Assembly: GCF_018448905.1 (NCBI RefSeq)
Contig: NZ_RCWA01000012.1
Coordinates: 1 to 64,000 of the forward strand
Direction of reading: 5' to 3'
DNA length: 64,000 bases
Origin: Photorhabdus heterorhabditis
Lineage (GTDB): Bacteria; Pseudomonadota; Gammaproteobacteria; Enterobacterales; Enterobacteriaceae
Shown here: positions 679 to 10,850 of the stretch, in pieces
Layout of the letters: each line of letters opens with the position of its first letter
Numbering within the stretch: position 1 is the first letter of the stretch
Notes under the pieces: model-generated
Database searches by the model: none
The model's input: the letters and a program-made list of their open reading frames with translations, nothing else
What the model was told of the DNA's origin: nothing
Program-made: the position numbers and the translations under genes

Positions 679-1221
679 CTAAAATCTCGTTTTTTTCAGC
701 GAAAGTAAAAACAGCATATTTTTAACAATAAAGGCGCTGATTAAAAAACAGAGGAAAACGAAAAGTGCATCGATATAAGTAAGATTAAGATAAATAAAAT
801 AGGCTGTTGTGACGCCAATAGCGGAATCAAGTTGGTCGAATAAAATAAATAGCCGCTTATTTTTCTCTGGATGTTGCCCCGGTGGTGCGCCGAGTCTTCT
901 TTTTAGCCAGGAGTTTGGTAATTCGAAAAGAACATAGCCGAGACCCGCCAGAAACCCGGTAAATAAGCAGGAAGAAATAGTCTGGGGAATCGTTGTGTCT
1001 TGTGTTCCAGTGTCGAAAACTAACCACAATAGCGAAAATAGCGCGGTAATAATGGGTACAGCAATAAAACCGCGCCAAGTCTTGTTACGGCCGAAATAAC
1101 GTTGATGTATTGGAATAGCCCAGTAGGCAAAATAGTTTTTTGTCACAATCACCATATGTAAACAGCCACCAAGGATGACGGGGATCATTAAAATCCACCC
1201 ATGATAAAAGCTATTGAGCAT
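679..1221 (-). CDS. CDP-archaeol synthase-like (CarS/DUF46) membrane cytidylyltransferase
   Basis: A 180-aa polytopic membrane protein with about five hydrophobic segments. Key loops are FGRNKTWRGF, then LPNSWLKRRLGAPPG, then LFDQLDSAIG. These match the conserved GxxKTWRG, SxxKRRxGxxPG and D-Q-x-D blocks of CarS/CdsA-like enzymes, which transfer CMP from CTP to a lipid phosphate. In archaea CarS makes CDP-archaeol; bacterial members are poorly characterised. I prefer the ATG at 1221 over an upstream in-frame start (1344) because it matches the family N-terminus and overlaps the upstream gene by 11 nt. Last gene of the operon. The substrate here is unknown; the neighbouring CDP-alcohol phosphatidyltransferase is the natural consumer of its product. 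Confidence 0.72.
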   Translation of the reverse strand: MLNSFYHGWILMIPVILGGCLHMVIVTKNYFAYWAIPIHQRYFGRNKTWRGFIAVPIITALFSLLWLVFDTGTQDTTIPQTISSCLFTGFLAGLGYVLFELPNSWLKRRLGAPPGQHPEKNKRLFILFDQLDSAIGVTTAYFIYLNLTYIDALFVFLCFLISAFIVKNMLFLLSLKKTRF

Positions 1222-1834
1222 AAAGACTCCAGAAATGAAGGCCGGTAAATAAAACAAACCCTGCAAGTGTTGTACTGACGATGGTACTGAGATGTTTGAA
1301 TTTATAAAACGGGCGATCCCATAGCATGGCGATACTGAATGCAATAAGCGCCAATGTTAGTAAGAGATGTGCCAACCATGACATTACGACTAAACTGACC
1401 AAAGTGTAACCGCTGACAATAAATAAGCTCCAGAATACGGGCATACCAAGATAGGAGAGTCGATCTTCATCCTGAATATTTCCGACTTCATTAAATACGG
1501 ATAATCGCAGACAACCGCTGATTATCATTAAGATAATAAACAGTGAATACCAGGATTGATAACCGGAAAGGTATAGGATGATGGATGGTGAGATCAGGTA
1601 AATAAGTTGATCCATAAATCCATCAAGATAACGGCCAAAAGGGCGGACAATATCTAAGTTTCTGGCCAGAATACCATCGAGTGCGTCGCCAAGCATGGCA
1701 AGATATAAGAACGCAATGGCCAGATAATGCCAATGCTGTAATGCGGCTGCCACGGAGAGAGCGCTAAATAGCGCTCCACCAATAGTGATATAGTCTGCTC
1801 TGTTTAGCTGGATGATGAAATGGTTACTGTTCAT
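1211..1834 (-). CDS. CDP-alcohol phosphatidyltransferase family membrane protein
   Basis: A 207-aa membrane protein with about six hydrophobic helices. It carries the full family signature D-G-x2-A-R-x8-G-x3-D-x3-D, read as DGILAR, eight residues, GRYLDGFMD (residues about 50-75). These enzymes (PgsA, PssA, archaetidyl-head-group synthases) displace CMP from a CDP-lipid with an alcohol, using two metal ions held by the Asp residues. ATG at 1834 overlaps the TGA of the ligase gene (ATGA), implying translational coupling. With the adjacent CarS-like enzyme it forms a complete activate-then-attach head-group module. The acceptor alcohol cannot be told from sequence. Confidence 0.82.
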   Translation of the reverse strand: MNSNHFIIQLNRADYITIGGALFSALSVAAALQHWHYLAIAFLYLAMLGDALDGILARNLDIVRPFGRYLDGFMDQLIYLISPSIILYLSGYQSWYSLFIILMIISGCLRLSVFNEVGNIQDEDRLSYLGMPVFWSLFIVSGYTLVSLVVMSWLAHLLLTLALIAFSIAMLWDRPFYKFKHLSTIVSTTLAGFVLFTGLHFWSLYAQ

Positions 1835-3405
1835 AATTTTTCCTTGTATGGAAAGGAGGATAATTGGTCTTTCTTGAGCATATTTATCAGCGCAATGCGG
1901 TTTATTTTGCTGTTATGGCGAATGTCAACGGGAATAGGATTGGCATAATAAATCCGGGTAACCAGAGTGAGATCCAGTTCGTCTAAAATGGTGGATAAAC
2001 CTGTCGGCAGGGTGGTACTTTCCAATATCAGCGCGGCTCCACCCAGAGGGTGCAATACAAATGCGCTCCGTGCGATATTTGACAGTTCATTAATCCTTTT
2101 TTCTACCATATAGGGATGGATAATACGCCCATCATCTAATATCACCTTGTCTTTTACCCGTCCAAGCAACCAGAGTTGCCTTGTGGCGTCTATGTAGCCA
2201 ACGTCACCGGTACAGTGCCAGATCCCTCCCTGTTTACGCGGGAGTTTGTTTTCTTTTGTTGCTTGAGGATTATCAATATAGTCTTTGAGCACATGAGGCC
2301 CGGCAACCAGAATTTCACCTATATCACCGGTAGCCAACGGAGTAATTTGCTGGGGATCAGCGGTTATCTCTCTGATACATATTTCGGCTTGTACGACGGG
2401 TTTCCCGACCAGATAACCATCATGTGTTGCCCAGTGATTTAATTGCGTTGTCATTTCGACCGTACTGATCGGTTCGACCTCGGTGGAGCCATAGACGACT
2501 AAATGCTTCGCATGTGGAAAGACGGTCAGACAGTTTTCGAGCAGTTCCTTATTGGCAGGAGCACCACCTACGATAACAGTTCGTACATTGGGGAATGACA
2601 ATCTGTTATTTCTAGCGTAATCAGTGAGTTTGCTCATATAAGCGGGTGCACCGCTGAGGCAGGTGACGCCCTCATTTTGCAACTGCCCGACGATCTTCTG
2701 TGCATCAACAGTTGCAGGATGGGCAAAGTCAAAATCAGGCAGAATACTGCTATTACCGCAGCACAATGAATGCAGTACCATGACGGGAAAACTGTGCAGG
2801 TCAATCTCATTCTTTTCTTCGGGAAGAAGCGCCTTTATGGCGTAAAGTTGTGCTAACAGGCTATCGTGAGTACGGTTTGCCCCTTTAGGTATACCGGTAG
2901 AACCAGAGGTAAAAGTAATTAATCCCGTCGTATCCGGCGGTAGGCTACGGCAGATAAAACGATTTAGTGGTAAATGTTGGCTGGGCGCTTTCAGTACTTT
3001 CATGCCCCAGATACGCTGTCCAATCACAAAACGGCGCGGTCGCCACAGTTCGGGGATCAGAAACCAGAATTTTCCTAATGCAGGTTGGGTGATAACCGCC
3101 GATAATTTACTGTGCCGTAGCGTCTCCCGGAGTTGTTTTTTGGAAAGACCCCGCTCAAGCATAACCGGAACCAGTCCCAATCCCAGAATGGCGATAAGCA
3201 ATGGGTAAAGTACTAATCCGGGCTGAACAATCACTAATAAGCGATCACCGGCCACGAACCCGGCTTGGGTTAACAGATGCTGGAAGTGGGATGCATGAGA
3301 AAAAAATTCCCGAAAACTTAAACTACTGCCGTGTGGTGCTTGCAGGGCTAAATGCTCAGGGTGTTTTTGGGCCGCATCGACAATGGGCTGACAAATATTT
3401 GTCAT
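1831..3405 (-). CDS. AMP-dependent synthetase/ligase (OleC/acyl-AMP ligase-like)
   Basis: A 524-aa adenylate-forming enzyme. The P-loop-like core TFTSGSTGIPKGA is near residue 170, VVYGSTEVEPIS near 310, and the hinge region GDVGYIDATRQLWLLGRVKD near 410. It should activate a carboxylate as an acyl adenylate for transfer to CoA, an amine or an alcohol. Parts, such as the N-terminal QPGLVLYPLLIAILGLGLVP stretch, recall OleC-type enzymes of hydrocarbon and beta-lactone pathways; that resemblance is from memory. ATG at 3405 overlaps the preceding stop by 4 nt. With the GNAT-like gene just upstream it suggests an activated acyl group passed to an amine or alcohol. The substrate is unknown. Confidence 0.8.
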   Translation of the reverse strand: MTNICQPIVDAAQKHPEHLALQAPHGSSLSFREFFSHASHFQHLLTQAGFVAGDRLLVIVQPGLVLYPLLIAILGLGLVPVMLERGLSKKQLRETLRHSKLSAVITQPALGKFWFLIPELWRPRRFVIGQRIWGMKVLKAPSQHLPLNRFICRSLPPDTTGLITFTSGSTGIPKGANRTHDSLLAQLYAIKALLPEEKNEIDLHSFPVMVLHSLCCGNSSILPDFDFAHPATVDAQKIVGQLQNEGVTCLSGAPAYMSKLTDYARNNRLSFPNVRTVIVGGAPANKELLENCLTVFPHAKHLVVYGSTEVEPISTVEMTTQLNHWATHDGYLVGKPVVQAEICIREITADPQQITPLATGDIGEILVAGPHVLKDYIDNPQATKENKLPRKQGGIWHCTGDVGYIDATRQLWLLGRVKDKVILDDGRIIHPYMVEKRINELSNIARSAFVLHPLGGAALILESTTLPTGLSTILDELDLTLVTRIYYANPIPVDIRHNSKINRIALINMLKKDQLSSFPYKEKL

Positions 3406-4457
3406 GCGATCCTCCTGTAATAAAGCGCATATTGATGTCTGGTGGAAGCGGGTGTATTGAAGAGCCGTTCTGCGGTCTTTAATGATTTATTATCTTCACG
3501 CATCAGGGCGCCCCCTAAACGGGGATGAACGAGGCTGGCGCTCTGCTGATATGAGTGATACAGCGAATGATATAGCCGACTCCCCCGATATTGCGGCGCA
3601 ACTGCTACAGTTTTCAACAAGCCTATAGCGGGCTGACCTTTTTGGCTCACGGATAAGCTAAGAATTAACCCAGTAATCTCGCCGCTGACGGTTTTAGCCA
3701 GAAATGACGCAGGGTAGAGACAAAAAGGTTTAATAAATTCCTTACCGCAATAATGTTGAAATGTTGTCCATGACGGTGTGGTGTAAGCGAAATTCTCGCC
3801 GAAGACTGAGTCGATGAAGGAATATAATTTAACCTGTTCTTGCATCCATAATTCTGGTGTTAACGGTAATAATGTTGCCTGGGGATCAGGGAATTTTTGT
3901 GCGCGTAGATAATCTTGCCGAAAGTTGTTTGCTATTGCTTGGGTGTCATCGAATAGCGAGGTATAGCGGTAACGAGTATTAAACCCCAACTTTTCTAATA
4001 AAGGGGAATAATAAGGCGGATTATAAGGTTCATTCTCAAAGGGGGGGACATCAAAATGATCAAGCCGGACGCGGTAATGCCCGAAGGTCGAAAAGTTAAT
4101 CGGCCCGTAGAGATTGTGTGCGCCATTTTTCTTGGCCCATTGTTCCAGGGCGCTAAACAGCATGGTGTTGCTTGCCATATCATTATCGGTTTCCCAAAAA
4201 CCGAAAAATGCGGCGGATTGACCATCAACGGCATGGGGCACTAAAAAACCGGCAAGACGAGTTTTCCCCGGAATACAGCCAATCCAGGCTTTGCTGTGAT
4301 TAAACCAGGGATTCTCCAGACTGAATTGTTGTTGTACCTTCTCCCGGTCTTCGCCAGGCCAGAGCGGCCAGTCACGGTAGATGGCTGCCGGAAGATCGAG
4401 AAAACTTTCAGGCAGTGGGTTGGCCGGGGACCACTCGCCCATGAAGATATCAGACAT
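3402..4457 (-). CDS. GNAT-like acyltransferase, YghO-type
   Basis: A 351-aa soluble protein. The central block NLYGPINFSTFGHYRV followed by PYNPPYYSPLLEKLGF is characteristic of the YghO-type group of large GNAT-like proteins. A C-terminal GNAT half contains GLLKTVAVAPQYRGSRLYHS, the acyl-CoA pyrophosphate-binding loop region (V-x-P-x-x-R-G). The ATG at 4457 is chosen because AAGGAG lies 6 nt upstream; an upstream in-frame ATG (4547) has no such site. The gene overlaps the end of the upstream gene by 8 nt. It probably transfers an acyl group to an amine in this pathway; neither donor nor acceptor can be read from the sequence. Confidence 0.65.
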   Translation of the reverse strand: MSDIFMGEWSPANPLPESFLDLPAAIYRDWPLWPGEDREKVQQQFSLENPWFNHSKAWIGCIPGKTRLAGFLVPHAVDGQSAAFFGFWETDNDMASNTMLFSALEQWAKKNGAHNLYGPINFSTFGHYRVRLDHFDVPPFENEPYNPPYYSPLLEKLGFNTRYRYTSLFDDTQAIANNFRQDYLRAQKFPDPQATLLPLTPELWMQEQVKLYSFIDSVFGENFAYTTPSWTTFQHYCGKEFIKPFCLYPASFLAKTVSGEITGLILSLSVSQKGQPAIGLLKTVAVAPQYRGSRLYHSLYHSYQQSASLVHPRLGGALMREDNKSLKTAERLFNTPASTRHQYALYYRRIA

Positions 4458-7194
4458 GTTCGCTCCTTGAAGGTAATTCTTCTGTAGTGGTGTTGTGCAA
4501 GCGGATAATACTCCCGGTTGCACCGTCCATGCGTACCCAATCGCCATCTTTTAAAATTTGGGTGACCGCTGGAATGCCAACAATTGCGGGAATACCCAGT
4601 TCGCGGGCTACAACGGCAGAATGAGAGAGTGTGGAACCACGTTCAATTAATAACCCGCCCGCTGTAGGGAATAATGGTGCCCAGCCGGGATCGGTACGAA
4701 CGGTACAAAGGATCTGCCCTGCCAGCGACATTTCATCCTGCGGGTTTTTAATTAAGCGAATAGTTGTTTCAACTAGCCCTGGATAACAACCGATGCCCTG
4801 TAGCATTCCGCTATCGGTTGGGGCTTGTTGTTCCTTATAGGGGTAGCTGTAATCTTGCTGCTGATACAGCGAGCCTCTAATGAAGAAGTGATGGGCTGGT
4901 TCATCCTCTGTTTCGTAACCAGCATACTCCTGTTTGCGTATGGCAACTAAAGGCTTAAGCTGAGTTTGTACCGCCGTTCCTTCGTAGCTGCTGTAGATTT
5001 CCTCTAACGTCAGATAGAAAATATCACGTGACTCGGCAAGGATTCCTTCCAATGCGTATGTCTGACCAAGCTGTATGAAAATATCCCGATATAGCCCAAA
5101 CATACGGGTTCGGGTGAAGCGCATATTTTCCCGGTGGCGTATTGCCTGGCGCAATTTCTGCAAATTCTTTTTGAAGGCGGCCATACGTTTGGAGCCAAGT
5201 TGCTCGCGTATTTGCTGAAATGCGGTGTTTTCTGCCTGAGTACGTAATTTTCTTTCCCGGCTGGATAACGTCTCTGGTGTGAGGGTATCGATAGCAAGGT
5301 AGTTTTTTAGTATCAGAAACAGAAAACTGGGATCTTGTTTTAGTGTAATAGTTTCCAGCTTTAGTTCGCCCATAGTACGATCGCCATATTTTTCAATATA
5401 ATCAATGCACTGTTGGTAGAATGGTTCATCGAGCTGGCGTGCTTGGGTTAACAGAGTACGTGCGTCACCGTTCGTTAGCAGGGTGCATAATTCAGGGCGC
5501 TGGCGCGCATATTGGCACATCTTTAACAGCACTTTGGTTGGTTGGGTACTTTCAATATCTTCGTCCCCTGAGAGGAGATCACCTAATAATGCCGTTGGAT
5601 TCTCAATGCCAGCCGCCGCCAGTCCCCGGTGTACTCGGCCATTAAACATCATTACGTAGAAATCATTCAGAATTGGCGTTGTCCAGCGCCGTAGCAGGTG
5701 CTCATCGAGATATTTCAATTTCTCGATTAGTTGGCCGCTGTTGCAGGTATGTAACTCTGTTCGTTTTATGGCTGCGGCATGTTGTTTAAATTGTGCTAAA
5801 AACAACTCTACTCGCCGATCCATCGTTCTGAAAGCGTATAGTAGTCGTAGCAATGCCCATCCCATTTGGGGAAGTTTTTTTATTTTATCGCCCAATGAAA
5901 GCTCTTTATCTTCAATGAAATCGACAGGATCTTCCATCCCCATCATTCTTTCCATATCTTTCTTATTAGTTTGGAAAGAGGGGAGTAATAATAGCCCTTT
6001 ATACCAGTTGTTGATGTTGTAATAGATCCGGCCTTTAATTAAGCCGAGCATATTTTCCAACATGGAACGATGCTGATTAACTTGTTTATCTGAGCAGCCC
6101 AATGCACGTATTGTCTGCTCATAAACAGTGGCATAACCAGCACGGGCAAAAGAGAAAGTCAGTGGCGTGGTTATTCCACAATAAGATTCTTGAATATTAG
6201 AGTTATCGAAGATAGTACGGTGTTCGTTCTTATCATCCTGACGGGGTAGTCTGGTTATTGGCCGGGTCTGTAGAATAAAGATTTGATGATTTTGCACCGT
6301 CCACTCAATATCTTGCGGACAACCGCGTGCCGCTGCGATTTTTTTTCCAATATCTCGCAATGCATATATTTCATCATCGGATAAGGTTGGTGCCCGCTGT
6401 TTTTCCTCTTCAACGGGTACTGTCACTGTACCGCTGCCGTTGGCGGTATCGAAGACACTTGCTGTCCCTTTTTGCGTGATATGGCGTTCGATCTCAGGCA
6501 TGGTGAGATGAACTGAAAACTCATCGGTATCGCATTCACCAGAAACTACACCTTCCCCAGTACCCCAAGCGGATGAGATTAAGTAATGTTGTCTACTGCC
6601 GGTAACTGGGTGCGCGGTAAACATGACTCCAGAAACTTCACCGGCAACCATGTTCTGAATAATAACAGCGCTACGGATATTACCCATCGGCAGTCGTTTG
6701 TGCAGGCGATATTGCAATGCACGGGTATTAAAGGCTGAAGCCATCACAGCACGTAAGCTGTCGGCAAGTGCGGATTTGCCACGCTGAAATAGGTAACTAT
6801 CCATCTGCCCGGCAAAAGAAGCATTGGCAGCGTCCTCACCAATAGCGGATGAGCGAACAGCAAAAAATGTATCTGGGTGATTCTCTGACAACAGAGCCAG
6901 CTCTGCTTCTAATTCCGCAGGCAGAGGGAGTGATTGTAACCATTGGCGCAAAGGGGCAGCAATGGCGTCGAGTTTTTCCTGGCTGATATCATGTGGCACG
7001 GAGGCTAACTGTTCCACAATGGTGATCGCAAATGTATCGTTAGCTAATAAGTTGTTTAGTACCTCGCTGCTGATGACCCAATAACCAGGTACAGGAAAAC
7101 TATTTTGCGTTAGCCATAATAAATTAGCCGCTTTGCCGCCTAAGGAATGCTCCGATAATTTAATAGCACTATCTTGAGTATAGAGATATTTCAT
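4450..7194 (-). CDS. PEP synthase/pyruvate phosphate dikinase-like phosphotransferase
   Basis: A 914-aa protein with the three-part plan of dikinases. The N-terminal ATP-grasp domain has GGKAANL, FFAVRSSAIGEDAANASFAG, GVMFTAHPVTG and an ILQTRPIT end. A divergent helical middle follows (about residues 330-770). The C-terminal phosphohistidine domain has ERGSTLSHSAVVAREL with the swivelling His near 858. It lacks the C-terminal TIM-barrel of true PEP synthase, so it resembles Rph-type enzymes that phosphorylate a small molecule with ATP as donor, releasing AMP and phosphate. ATG at 7194 follows GGTGG and begins MKYLYTQD; a start at 7236 has poorer context. A housekeeping ppsA role is unlikely. 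The acceptor is unknown. Confidence 0.75.
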   Translation of the reverse strand: MKYLYTQDSAIKLSEHSLGGKAANLLWLTQNSFPVPGYWVISSEVLNNLLANDTFAITIVEQLASVPHDISQEKLDAIAAPLRQWLQSLPLPAELEAELALLSENHPDTFFAVRSSAIGEDAANASFAGQMDSYLFQRGKSALADSLRAVMASAFNTRALQYRLHKRLPMGNIRSAVIIQNMVAGEVSGVMFTAHPVTGSRQHYLISSAWGTGEGVVSGECDTDEFSVHLTMPEIERHITQKGTASVFDTANGSGTVTVPVEEEKQRAPTLSDDEIYALRDIGKKIAAARGCPQDIEWTVQNHQIFILQTRPITRLPRQDDKNEHRTIFDNSNIQESYCGITTPLTFSFARAGYATVYEQTIRALGCSDKQVNQHRSMLENMLGLIKGRIYYNINNWYKGLLLLPSFQTNKKDMERMMGMEDPVDFIEDKELSLGDKIKKLPQMGWALLRLLYAFRTMDRRVELFLAQFKQHAAAIKRTELHTCNSGQLIEKLKYLDEHLLRRWTTPILNDFYVMMFNGRVHRGLAAAGIENPTALLGDLLSGDEDIESTQPTKVLLKMCQYARQRPELCTLLTNGDARTLLTQARQLDEPFYQQCIDYIEKYGDRTMGELKLETITLKQDPSFLFLILKNYLAIDTLTPETLSSRERKLRTQAENTAFQQIREQLGSKRMAAFKKNLQKLRQAIRHRENMRFTRTRMFGLYRDIFIQLGQTYALEGILAESRDIFYLTLEEIYSSYEGTAVQTQLKPLVAIRKQEYAGYETEDEPAHHFFIRGSLYQQQDYSYPYKEQQAPTDSGMLQGIGCYPGLVETTIRLIKNPQDEMSLAGQILCTVRTDPGWAPLFPTAGGLLIERGSTLSHSAVVARELGIPAIVGIPAVTQILKDGDWVRMDGATGSIIRLHNTTTEELPSRSEHV

Positions 7195-7356
7195 GTTATT
7201 CCACCAATGCAGCAATAGTACACTTATGTATATCATGGTCTTATTTGCACATAATATTTGTGGGTTAATAGATCAATAAGACTCGAATGTATTACAAGCT
7301 ATTGCTGCACCCTTGTTATTAGAGGAAGAGTGAATTAAATAACTTAATTCGATTTA

Positions 7357-9885
7357 CTATTGATTTCGTGTTAATGAAATAAGCCAGTGGATAGTTTTCA
7401 TCGTGCGCTCCATAAATGGATAGCCAACAACATTATGTGCCATCATATAAAACGGGATTCTTCTCATACAGAAATCACGTAGCGCTAGTTCATAACCGCG
7501 ATACCAATTTATTGGATCGAGAGCAATCCCCGATTTTTGCTCGAGTTCAATTCGGTGTAGTTCAATATAATAGGCCACACTGTTTGCATCACTTTGCTGG
7601 TGGTCTAAGCTAAAGGCTAACAGTTCAACGAGGTCGCGTTGTGGTAGATGCAAAGTAGACAATTCCCAATCCCAAGCGCATAAACGTAACCCCTCTTCCT
7701 GCTGCCGGAAGGCAATATTACGTGGATTGAAGTCACCATGGATCAATGTCCGAGGCATCTGTTCGATTTCTTGCCACCAGATGGCTGAGTTATCTACCCA
7801 GTGCTGGAAATCTTGATGTTCCTCGGCGGTTAATAGCTCCGGGAATGTTTGGTGAACAAAATTGCCTAGTTTTTTCCATAGGGGACTCATTTGTGAAACC
7901 GTATCAGCATTCGAAATTTGCAGTTGTGGGAATTTCCACATTAGCTCTTCTTCTTGCCCTAACCAGATGGCGTGAATATCGGTAATCCCTTGGATAGCGG
8001 CTTCAAGGTGGTGCTGTTCCCAGGGCATTTCCAGATTAATATTGTTCATTAACACCATATCGTGAAGCAATTCTTCAATTAGGGCATAGGTTCCAGTTGT
8101 CTCGTTTTCAATCACACCATAGATGACCGGCATATAACGCATGAGCTGTGGATTTTGCTGGTTCATAATAGCTAGCTCGCGGGTATGGCTCTGGTTAAAT
8201 TCAAGCTGATGTGCAAAATTCTGAAAAACAGCAAACAGCTCAGGGGAACAGTGTTTGGCGATATCCAGTATCATGTTAACCACCTCATTCCCCAACGGTT
8301 TTAGCTTCAGCATTATAGGTAGAGTGAGCTGTGCGGATGTGGTCATAGCAAAGGGAAATAGACCAATTAAACGTTCTGCATAGTTTGAACTCAGCTGGGT
8401 TAGCATGCTATGTCCATCATCACCAGAAAATTTGGGTTTGATGGTGGTCAGGTTAGCCCCTTGTAACACAGGGTTAAAATTTGCTTGTTGGAAGAATGAC
8501 AGATCAAGCTCTTGCGGGGTACGCGGAATAATGCCAACGGTGGGAGCTGGATGGTTACGGCTGAGTTTTTCATGCGATTGCGCAAACTCATCCGCAGCAA
8601 TGGCTGACAGTGTTGAAATATCAAGAGCCAGGCAATAACTAGCAATGATCTCAGCCAGGCAAGTGGTGCCGTTTTCATCGGTGCAGCCCAACATATTCAG
8701 GCATTCGCGTTGGTGTGGTAAATAGGTACCTCCGCCGACTGTGCCTACGATCAGTGATGGCAGTGTGATACTGCAATAGACGCGGTTATCGGCAGTTAAT
8801 GTCATGTGCAAATGCGCTACCGATGATTCATGTACGCAGGCGATATCTTGGCCTAAGGCTGTAAACATCCCGGCGATAACATTTGCTGCATTAATATTTA
8901 TACCAACCATCCCTGAAGCCGTAGCTCCTTCGCAGACATGATGATAAGCGGTGACAAGTTGTTGAGGAGTGACTCGCAGGATTTGCTGACAGGATTCAGC
9001 ATTTAGATAAACCTCTGCCACGACACGTGTTCCACGTCCTTCAATAAAGGATTGATAAGCTACCTTTTTATCGCTGGAAGTATTACCGTCTATCATAAAG
9101 TGGCGCAGTGGTATAAAAGCCATTTTTGCTAGCTGCTCTTGTATCCATTGGCATGCATACCAGGTACAGATGGTGGTCATATTCTGACCCGCAGCGGCGG
9201 CTGTATTGTAGATAAACTGCAAATGGACACTGCGTCCAATGATGTGTGGTTTTATTTCCGTTAATTGCGCATGCTTGGAGTGACGTCCAATTTCATGCCG
9301 TAGTTCGCTGATATGTTCGTTGATCCAATCACTGAACATAATGCTATGTGAGACGCTATAAAATTCAAAACGGGGAGCTCGTATCATGCGTTGACCAAGC
9401 ACACGGGCAGTCGTACCCCCTGATTGCATAATGGCTGAGGAACCACGGGATATTGACGCAATTAGGGCGGCTTCTGTGGTGGCAATCGGTGCGTAATATA
9501 CCCCTTGAGCGTATTGTCCCTTTATCAATAAAGGGCCAGCAATCCCTACAGGGATTTCTATTGAACCAATAAATCCTTCAATCGTTTTTGTTAGTTTCGT
9601 CGCGTCCAGATGGGTATTTGCCACGTGTTCCAGCGTATGTCCGGTATGTTTTGCCAAATAATCCAAGCGTTTTTGCCGGGCTTCCTCGGTATATGTATAA
9701 AGATGGCGGCGGGGTAATAATTTTACCTGGGCTGCTGTTGTATGAACGGCAGATACCTCTTGGTGTTTATTGCTGAATATGTCACGTGATAATTCTGGAA
9801 TTGAACTCAGTGCACCGCTCTCTATGTGAGTAGTAGTATTATCTGAGACATGACTCTCATATGATTGGATATTTTTTTGCAACAT
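7357..9885 (-). CDS. HMG-CoA reductase fused to an APH/choline-kinase-like domain
   Basis: An 842-aa two-domain protein. Residues about 45-445 are an HMG-CoA reductase of the class I type. It has PIATTEAALIAS (Glu138), DGNTSSDKK (catalytic Lys273/274) before IEGRG, ALGQD (Asp347), LIVGTVGGGT, and QSHEKLSRNH (His438), so all four catalytic residues are in place. Residues about 500-842 form an APH-type phosphotransferase fold with the catalytic loop HGDFNPRN (716-723) and the metal-binding WDWE (Asp739). The first domain should make mevalonate from HMG-CoA with NADPH; the second should phosphorylate a hydroxyl. I know of no described protein with this fusion. ATG at 9885 follows GAAGGAAA; the upstream ATG (9945) lies inside the previous gene. 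One continuous frame, so not an assembly chimera of two frames. Confidence 0.85.
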   Translation of the reverse strand: MLQKNIQSYESHVSDNTTTHIESGALSSIPELSRDIFSNKHQEVSAVHTTAAQVKLLPRRHLYTYTEEARQKRLDYLAKHTGHTLEHVANTHLDATKLTKTIEGFIGSIEIPVGIAGPLLIKGQYAQGVYYAPIATTEAALIASISRGSSAIMQSGGTTARVLGQRMIRAPRFEFYSVSHSIMFSDWINEHISELRHEIGRHSKHAQLTEIKPHIIGRSVHLQFIYNTAAAAGQNMTTICTWYACQWIQEQLAKMAFIPLRHFMIDGNTSSDKKVAYQSFIEGRGTRVVAEVYLNAESCQQILRVTPQQLVTAYHHVCEGATASGMVGININAANVIAGMFTALGQDIACVHESSVAHLHMTLTADNRVYCSITLPSLIVGTVGGGTYLPHQRECLNMLGCTDENGTTCLAEIIASYCLALDISTLSAIAADEFAQSHEKLSRNHPAPTVGIIPRTPQELDLSFFQQANFNPVLQGANLTTIKPKFSGDDGHSMLTQLSSNYAERLIGLFPFAMTTSAQLTLPIMLKLKPLGNEVVNMILDIAKHCSPELFAVFQNFAHQLEFNQSHTRELAIMNQQNPQLMRYMPVIYGVIENETTGTYALIEELLHDMVLMNNINLEMPWEQHHLEAAIQGITDIHAIWLGQEEELMWKFPQLQISNADTVSQMSPLWKKLGNFVHQTFPELLTAEEHQDFQHWVDNSAIWWQEIEQMPRTLIHGDFNPRNIAFRQQEEGLRLCAWDWELSTLHLPQRDLVELLAFSLDHQQSDANSVAYYIELHRIELEQKSGIALDPINWYRGYELALRDFCMRRIPFYMMAHNVVGYPFMERTMKTIHWLISLTRNQ

Positions 9886-9905
9886 AACTATATTTCCTTC
9901 GATAC

Positions 9906-10850
9906 CTAAGCAAACCCAAGCTTTATTAAAATACTGGCAGCGCAAACTGAATAACCCAGAACCATAAACATTCCCACGACAGCTTCATCGCGTTTGCGAT
10001 TTTGAATAGTGGGGTGGCAGAGAAATTTACCCAATTGCCATAGACACAATGCATAACAAACTACCAAGATAATTAATGCCCATAACACTATGCCGTCAGT
10101 GGTGATATTAATTAGCCAAATCTGTAACACTAACATTATGGTGAGTAATGCTGCGATAATAGCGATCGCCCCTTTTCTGCCGAAAATAGATGAATAGGTT
10201 GGTATTTCCGGACGTTCTTCATCTGGGCCTTTACACTTGCGTGTAATTTCAAAACTAAATCCAGAGAAAAAGCATAACCCCATCAAAACCCATATTGGGA
10301 AAGTGAGTGTGAGGTTGGGACTAGCGATATTAACCAGCCACCAGATAATGAGTGGCATGACCAACATATGGGAAATGGCATACCAAGTGAGGTGCTGGTT
10401 TAACCATTCACTGATAAAGAATTCTTTCCCCATAAGACAGGTCCAGATAAAGACTAATAGCCAGGCAAAAGTGACTGAACCAACTCCCTGATCTAAAAAT
10501 AAACTCCCACCCAATTGCAGGGTAATGCAGCAGATACCGAGTACTCGTAGATTTTTCAGCGTAATAATGCCGCGCTGTAATATCCGCTGTGGGTGGTGTT
10601 CACAATCCAGCTGATAATCTTTATGCTCATCGAATATCCGTAATAGTAAAAAATAAGAAAAGGACATTAAGCAACCAAGCAGGATCTCCCATGATAAAAC
10701 CGGCTTTTCCCCTATCGAGTAAAAAGCTACGGAATAGCTGATGATATAAAATATAAAGAAAAGTGGCGCGTTCTGTAGCGGGAAGCGCTCATCCATCCAT
10801 AGCTTTATCCTCTTACCAATGAATCTTGAATAAATATCTTGGCCTTCCAT
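9906..10850 (-). CDS. UbiA-type prenyltransferase-like membrane protein
   Basis: A 314-aa protein with eight or nine hydrophobic segments. The first Asp-rich motif is LRIFDEHKDYQLD (residues about 92-104) and a second polar loop is RKCKGPDEERPE (about 205-216). Both sit on the cytosolic loops expected for UbiA enzymes, which bind prenyl diphosphate through Mg2+ and transfer the prenyl group to an aromatic or glycerol-phosphate acceptor. The motifs are variant rather than canonical N-D-x-x-D, so the substrate could be unusual. First gene of the minus-strand operon, 20 nt before the HMG-CoA reductase fusion. In archaea a UbiA enzyme makes digeranylgeranylglyceryl phosphate; that parallel is only a hypothesis here. 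Confidence 0.7.
   Translation of the reverse strand: MEGQDIYSRFIGKRIKLWMDERFPLQNAPLFFIFYIISYSVAFYSIGEKPVLSWEILLGCLMSFSYFLLLRIFDEHKDYQLDCEHHPQRILQRGIITLKNLRVLGICCITLQLGGSLFLDQGVGSVTFAWLLVFIWTCLMGKEFFISEWLNQHLTWYAISHMLVMPLIIWWLVNIASPNLTLTFPIWVLMGLCFFSGFSFEITRKCKGPDEERPEIPTYSSIFGRKGAIAIIAALLTIMLVLQIWLINITTDGIVLWALIILVVCYALCLWQLGKFLCHPTIQNRKRDEAVVGMFMVLGYSVCAASILIKLGFA

Follow-up and report, generated by a model that had tools for sequence, protein, structure and literature searches.

The DNA considered here, called the window throughout, is a stretch of 64,000 nucleotides from Photorhabdus heterorhabditis (contig NZ_RCWA01000012.1, positions 1 to 64,000). Seven open reading frames (ORFs) on its minus strand fill positions 679-10850, and their products are, in order, a UbiA-superfamily prenyltransferase, an HMG-CoA reductase (HMGR) fused to a kinase, a protein of the phosphoenolpyruvate (PEP) synthase superfamily (PEPS), a YghO-type GNAT acyltransferase, an AMP-forming ligase, a CDP-alcohol phosphatidyltransferase (CDP-OH-PT) and a CarS-like cytidylyltransferase. 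A first-pass annotation of this DNA had pointed to these genes as an undescribed operon, and the operon is real: the order is the one it gave, signature motifs are intact in the window's CDP-OH-PT, CarS, kinase, UbiA, ligase and PEPS, and the seven genes are under purifying selection (dN/dS 0.048-0.183, five comparisons for each gene). That it is undescribed also holds for the papers listed by literature searches, including searches with Photorhabdus as a term; for two queries the listing took in 25 of 245 and 10 of 58 papers, for the rest every match, with subscription journals largely outside. Nor is the operon treated in the accessible parts of PMC9386255, PMC12419801, PMC1262709, PMC6642084 and PMC11481567, the last of which concerns a Photorhabdus inhibitor of ubiquinone synthesis.

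Three of the genes probably start downstream of the point where their ORFs open. Stops lie within the N-terminal extensions of orthologues at five loci for the GNAT, two for CarS (upstream of 1221 in loci L027 and L034) and one for HMGR::kinase, so the starts were moved to ATG codons at 4457, 1221 and 9885, respectively. With these starts UbiA and HMGR::kinase are 20 bp apart (by subtraction) and HMGR::kinase and PEPS 120 bp, and the next four junctions overlap by 8, 4, 4 and 11 bp.

What kinds of enzymes are these? Six of the seven proteins pass a Pfam gathering cut-off, the exception being the GNAT, which has a sub-threshold GNAT match. The first gene (9906..10850, on the minus strand like the rest) encodes the UbiA-type prenyltransferase (PF01040, 6.5e-15; NF004617, 426.8 bits against a cut-off of 239). 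Crude counting on a hydropathy profile gives it about nine transmembrane (TM) segments; it has the motif DExKDxxxD, and the only match of its family profile in the PDB at E<=0.1 is a digeranylgeranylglyceryl phosphate (DGGGP) synthase (6m31, E=1.9e-4). The second (7357..9885, ORF opening at 9945) joins an HMGR fold (PF00368, 7e-114) to a small-molecule kinase of the APH type (PF01636, 1.1e-7) with the motifs HGD....N and DWE. PEPS (4450..7236, start possibly at 7194) matches PF01326 and PF00391 and belongs to a family of its own, NF004883 (1955.5 bits). PEP synthase has a C-terminal PEP/pyruvate-binding TIM-barrel domain; in the window's protein Pfam shows PPDK_N and a C-terminal mobile His domain only. 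The protein carries the motif SHSAVVARE, and its arrangement of an ATP domain, a middle part and a C-terminal His domain is the layout of rifampin phosphotransferase (Rph) and the prodigiosin ligase PigC. The PigC model is matched end to end (342 bits), although the protein stays below both the Rph and the PigC cut-offs. Within the PDB, the family profile comes closest to 5fbs, which we take to be Rph; the entry title reads phosphoenolpyruvate synthase.

The putative N-acyltransferase (3402..4457, ORF opening at 4547) aligns with YghO of E. coli B (BL21) at 26% over 150 columns (E=1.6e-13), so the YghO-type assignment made at first pass stands despite the missing Pfam match. The acyl ligase (1831..3405; PF00501, 6e-45; NF006754, 535.9 bits against a cut-off of 478) is related to the beta-lactone synthetase OleC, although its scores with two OleC equivalog models, 215.6 and 194.2 bits, miss the cut-offs of 900 and 850. 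One locus, L054, has the ligase in a single protein with an alpha/beta hydrolase, which resembles the OleBC fusion; no OleA or OleD, for neither of which a profile search was made, is among the cassette genes identified. The CDP-OH-PT (1211..1834; PF01066, 1.8e-13) carries the motif DG..AR.{8}G...D...D, also found in 5/5 relatives checked, and is closest to serine-type synthases: it scores about 66 bits with both the archaetidylserine synthase and the PssA models, below their cut-offs of 200 and 107. CarS (679..1221, ORF opening at 1344), a putative CTP:lipid-phosphate cytidylyltransferase, matches PF01864 (30.4 bits, cut-off 22) and falls short of the CDP-archaeol synthase equivalog NF003114 (35.8 bits, cut-off 148). 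The motifs FGxNKTWRG and DxxDS are present in the window's protein, and KTWRG/DxxDS also in the alignment. Four TM segments were counted, again crudely, in each of these last two proteins. UbiA, CDP-OH-PT and CarS are membrane-enzyme families that act on lipids.

How widely is the operon conserved? A scan of genome contigs returned 13 named loci, 12 from Photorhabdus and one from Limnobaculum allomyrinae, and the seven genes stand in identical order in all 13; the complete set, with its order kept, recurs in genomes G243, G268 and G390. Searches return matching loci only, and such figures therefore describe loci that carry the operon. Nearest among the named loci are those of P. asymbiotica and P. 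australis, whose HMGR::kinase is 93% identical. In a family scan for HMGR::kinase (E<=1e-20), 11 of 392 genomes match, nine in both the HMGR and the kinase part (G243 in two frames) and two in the HMGR part only. In 12/12 Photorhabdus loci the operon sits at a common genomic site, with upstream genes like those of the window (presumably yhbS- and yhbQ-like), and a helix-turn-helix gene follows downstream in 8/12, some partial or in pieces. The Limnobaculum-type copies have interrupted frames, in UbiA and PEPS at L027 and in HMGR and GNAT at L034, which could reflect errors in the drafts or an operon that is decaying in this genus.

Beyond this group, the seven-gene operon is best read as one form of a modular cassette that is rare and scattered. 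The core of HMGR, UbiA and PEPS, usually with the YghO-type GNAT and the OleC-related ligase, occurs in other Gammaproteobacteria and in Roseinatronobacter, of which sp. S2 was added by a plasmid search. A profile of PEPS (E<=1e-110) matches 8/369 gammaproteobacterial genomes (the window's own included); in a phylum sample the own genome is the only match (1/398), which indicates how rare the cassette is. Scans within orders gave 4/40, 1/3 and 5/57, centre genomes included, the 1/3 being G681 itself. A tblastn search of plasmids with GNAT and CarS gave no match, although a later profile search did find the GNAT in the plasmid locus L038.

Two gene sets divide the loci. In the 18 loci of types A and C (the window, L016-L028, L032/L074, L033, L034 and L054) the kinase, CDP-OH-PT and CarS are present in 18/18, and DUF3419 and a membrane protein of about 440 amino acids, here DOLK, in 0/18. 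The nine type B loci (L038, L049, L050, L051, L053, L055, L067, L070 and L071) combine HMGR, UbiA and PEPS with DUF3419 and DOLK, have the GNAT in 8/9 and the ligase in 7/9 (L049 ends at a contig end), and carry kinase, CDP-OH-PT and CarS in 0/9. The kinase/CDP-OH-PT/CarS set and the DUF3419/DOLK set are thus mutually exclusive, 18 against 9 loci. The profiles behind this presence table were partly built from the very loci scored, which keeps the scores from counting as independent evidence that the proteins are related. Left outside the type B count were the short contigs L068 and L069, and L052 (PEPS and DUF3419 only), L072 (PEPS with weak GNAT, 87 bits, and UbiA, 38 bits) and L073 (PEPS 437 bits, ligase 50). 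L068, L069 and L052 do not contradict the split, as they have DUF3419 without kinase, CDP-OH-PT or CarS. Fusions occur on both sides of the split: PEPS::DUF3419 in L055, where the DOLK gene is in two pieces (L071 gives a partial match), and CDP-OH-PT::CarS in L054, which represents type C. In L054 a formyltransferase gene stands directly before the ligase, in the slot of the YghO-type GNAT of type A, and an ordinary 160-amino-acid GNAT gene directly after PEPS.

Trees were built for UbiA, the ligase, PEPS and HMGR. Types A and C stand apart from type B in the UbiA tree (support 0.99) and in the ligase tree (0.974); in the PEPS tree type B forms one side of a branch (0.999), with the L072 and L073 proteins falling with A and C. 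The HMGR tree supports a group of type B enzymes with a Photobacterium enzyme (98/98) and a kinase-fused group (100/100). That Photobacterium enzyme is a stand-alone HMGR on a replicon (L030:11860-13119), beside an EamA transporter gene; it has S684 -> D and K735 -> N, it groups with type B, and the cassette partners are absent from its locus.

Is the HMGR of the cassette an HMG-CoA reductase at all? Its catalytic residues E559, K691 and D767 are kept in 12/12 cassette enzymes aligned, and H866 in 11/12; the twelfth, from G268, is trimmed there and shows H866 in separate data. The pocket tells another story. Human S684 is replaced by D or E in 12/12 aligned cassette enzymes and K735 by a residue other than K in 12/12, whereas both are kept in 3/3 solved HMGRs aligned; these are presumably the residues that bind the HMG carboxylate. 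R590 is kept in 12/12 and K692 in 11/12 (the twelfth reads X), and the NADP motif DAMGMN has become xAxGQN. K735 is also lost in relatives outside the cassette (Photobacterium, Alteromonas, g140, Streptomyces and the second HMGR of the own genome), so the cassette enzymes are not alone in lacking it. The curated equivalog for class I HMGR, TIGR00533, gives 300.1 bits against a cut-off of 441.8. The best genome match to HMG-CoA synthase (PF01154) reaches 21.6 bits, below the cut-off of 25 (seven control genomes matched, E. coli included, and one of the seven likewise lay below the cut-off), and mevalonate-diphosphate decarboxylase (PF18376) has no match in the genome. Since the pocket residues are changed and neither a synthase above cut-off nor a decarboxylase was found, HMG-CoA seems an unlikely substrate. 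In keeping with the first-pass annotation, which had this bacterium making isoprenoids by the methylerythritol phosphate (MEP) route, the MEP marker IspH is present and the mevalonate route is incomplete.

The same annotation had found HMGR out of place in an enterobacterium; it is less so than supposed, as HMGR-family genes also occur elsewhere in the own genome and in related ones. The second gene of the own genome (G000:C3, locus L037:8509-9795) lies between biotin-carboxylase and carboxyltransferase genes. This neighbourhood, which also has MmgE/PrpD and biotinyl-domain genes, suggests branched-chain acid metabolism; the pocket of this second HMGR is changed too (R590 -> N, K692 -> R). Elsewhere, L035:6810-9608 encodes an AMP-ligase fused to an HMGR domain and adjoins genes for a nonribosomal peptide synthetase (NRPS), a thioesterase and an ATP-grasp-type protein, and L036:8908-11613, which comes from that genus too, agrees with it in the arrangement of ORFs (a comparison of layout only). 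These two layouts are a sign that HMGR folds also serve natural-product clusters. A plasmid of Streptomyces sp. NBC_01435 (L029:17539-20313) carries an HMGR::kinase fusion of its own (37%) near DUF6182 and adenylation/carrier-domain genes; UbiA, PEPS, the YghO-type GNAT, CDP-OH-PT and CarS were not found at that locus, where AMP-binding matches are generic only.

What could the cassette make? We put at roughly 0.4 the probability that the operon represents type A, the phospho form of a modular cassette for amphiphile biosynthesis with exchangeable amino-acid head groups. The conservation, co-inheritance and intact motifs of the genes, the exclusive head-group gene sets and the fusions are observed; every substrate and the order of steps we infer. 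The substrate of the HMGR-fold enzyme would be an acyl thioester different from HMG-CoA, reduced to a primary alcohol, which the fused kinase would phosphorylate. CarS would then convert the alcohol phosphate to a CDP-lipid, and the CDP-OH-PT would put a small alcohol in the place of CMP, with serine the likeliest candidate. UbiA would attach a prenyl chain supplied by the MEP pathway of the host. The ligase would activate an acid with which the GNAT could N-acylate the amine of the head group, an acylation site suggested by its kinship with the N-acyltransferase YghO; in L054 the formyltransferase gene gives a hint of formylation. PEPS, the least certain step, might catalyse an ATP-dependent phosphoryl transfer or a condensation. 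The first-pass model of an amphiphile with a CDP-dependent head group thus agrees with the presence of CarS and CDP-OH-PT, fused in L054, while its mevalonate building block has become doubtful given the replaced S684 and K735 and the lack of an HMG-CoA synthase above cut-off; its interpretation as a whole is partly supported.

How would type B do without the CDP route? BtaA moves a 3-amino-3-carboxypropyl group onto a lipid hydroxyl. According to PMC6642084, BtaA matches DUF3419, and DUF3419 transcripts go with the betaine lipid diacylglyceryltrimethylhomoserine (DGTS) in algae, where 20/21 DUF3419-positive strains contain DGTS. In type B, DUF3419 stands in for the CDP-type set; neither the window's operon nor the rest of the window has a match to it. 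To our knowledge HMGR, UbiA, PEPS, GNAT and ligase, which type B adds, are not part of BtaAB. In type B the BtaA-family aminocarboxypropyl transferase and the polyprenol-kinase-like DOLK, which resembles dolichol and phytol kinases in a motif only, would replace kinase, CarS and CDP-OH-PT and yield an ether-linked homoserine head. As CDP-OH-PT is closest to serine-type enzymes and DUF3419 is the BtaA family, either set could join a hydroxyl to an alpha-amino acid, which would be serine, linked by a phosphodiester, in type A and homoserine, linked by an ether, in type B.

Several points weigh against this reading. The cassette is known here from its genes, and the serine preference of CDP-OH-PT is read from model scores below cut-off. 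The structure models of kinase and GNAT are poor: the former (pLDDT 46.4) is unfit for use, and the latter (55.6) matches GNAT-type structures and serves for the statement 'GNAT fold' only. The HMGR tree does not place types A and B as one clade apart from true HMGRs, so a single origin of the two is unsupported, and GNAT, CDP-OH-PT and CarS lie outside the set of trees. Both GNAT and ligase are missing from the stretch fetched for L067, a type B locus. L054 keeps the ligase without a YghO-type GNAT, so the two need not form one acylation module, and its 160-amino-acid GNAT weakens the case for formylation instead of acylation. Finally, DOLK is given no family by Pfam (over cut-off) or NCBIfam, and hhalign found no relation between DOLK and CarS.

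Could the product be a secreted small molecule, an N-acylated and prenylated phospho-amino acid directed at competitors or the insect host? We consider this unlikely, yet deserving of attention. The genome has 59 AMP-binding matches and is rich in genes of the peptide-synthetase type; the condensing enzyme PigC shares the layout of PEPS, related HMGRs adjoin NRPS-type genes (L035, L029), and L034 has an ABC transporter ahead of its operon. Against it, UbiA, CDP-OH-PT and CarS (9, 4 and 4 TM segments) are of lipid-acting membrane families, a transporter is absent from the seven conserved genes, and the operon keeps its common site throughout the 12 Photorhabdus loci, although these were chosen for having it. 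The idea that HMGR does make mevalonate from HMG-CoA, possibly drawn from leucine breakdown, and that the kinase turns it into phosphomevalonate, a C6 backbone then prenylated, acylated and given a CDP-dependent head, strikes us as improbable. It gains from the intact catalytic tetrad, the kept R590 and K692 and the 381 bits to the HMGR family, and the carboxylase-type genes around the second HMGR might supply HMG-CoA; the replaced S684 and K735 and the lack, in the genome, of an HMG-CoA synthase above cut-off and of a mevalonate-diphosphate decarboxylase tell against it.

The YghO likeness recalls rhodobacterial sphingolipid genes (aca/yghO, aasR, acpR, spt and epi in E. coli B and Caulobacter), and PMC9386255 describes yghO as the N-acyltransferase gene 'aca' beside AasR, AcpR and Spt in the sphingolipid locus of E. 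coli B. A ceramide-type pathway, with the GNAT as ceramide N-acyltransferase and the ligase as its acyl activator, is nevertheless very unlikely: the seven genes include no serine palmitoyltransferase, acyl carrier protein or epimerase (for the first, no search went beyond these seven), and the ligase is of another subfamily, distant from AasR (best high-scoring segment 31% over 80 columns; 72 bits by profile). Archaeal ether phospholipids have four enzyme types in common with the operon, namely HMGR, UbiA/DGGGP synthase, CarS and CDP-OH-PT/archaetidylserine synthase, and the CDP-OH-PT scores best with the archaetidylserine synthase model, level with PssA. Even so, that true archaeal-type lipids are made here is scarcely credible. 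As noted at first pass, the operon lacks glycerol-1-phosphate dehydrogenase and geranylgeranylglyceryl phosphate synthase (no genome-wide search for them was made) and the mevalonate pathway is incomplete; the HMGR pocket is altered, and CarS scores below its equivalog cut-off. Archaeal lipids, sphingolipids and canonical use of mevalonate were rejected or down-weighted on this evidence.

A bolder extension of the amphiphile cassette is tentative, and we would sooner doubt it than hold it: the products would form an unrecognised class of bacterial amphiphiles, possibly membrane lipids, in which an HMGR with a rebuilt pocket makes the primary alcohol for a phosphodiester-serine or ether-homoserine head with an acylated or formylated amine, the HMGR fold acting as a head-group-forming reductase outside mevalonate metabolism. 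If the cassette reading is right, an undescribed amphiphile is the product of an operon present in 12 named Photorhabdus genomes, one group of HMGR-fold enzymes performs chemistry other than mevalonate synthesis, and head-group chemistry is swapped as a module, the CDP route against the BtaA-family one, while the rest of the core stays constant. It would also caution against reading isoprenoid or archaeal-lipid metabolism into every bacterial HMGR, UbiA or CarS annotation.

Two further observations concern the history of the DNA. For GNAT, ligase and CDP-OH-PT (window 1211-4457), dS to P. thracensis/P. khanii is 0.23-0.42 against 0.58-0.60 to P. asymbiotica, whereas UbiA, HMGR, PEPS and CarS show the opposite pattern, which points to a recombined stretch at 1211-4457. 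At the left edge of the window, positions 1-159 match a TnpB-type transposon gene in E. coli plasmids and chromosomes; in the E. coli search, the best 20 of 644 records match this gene piece only.

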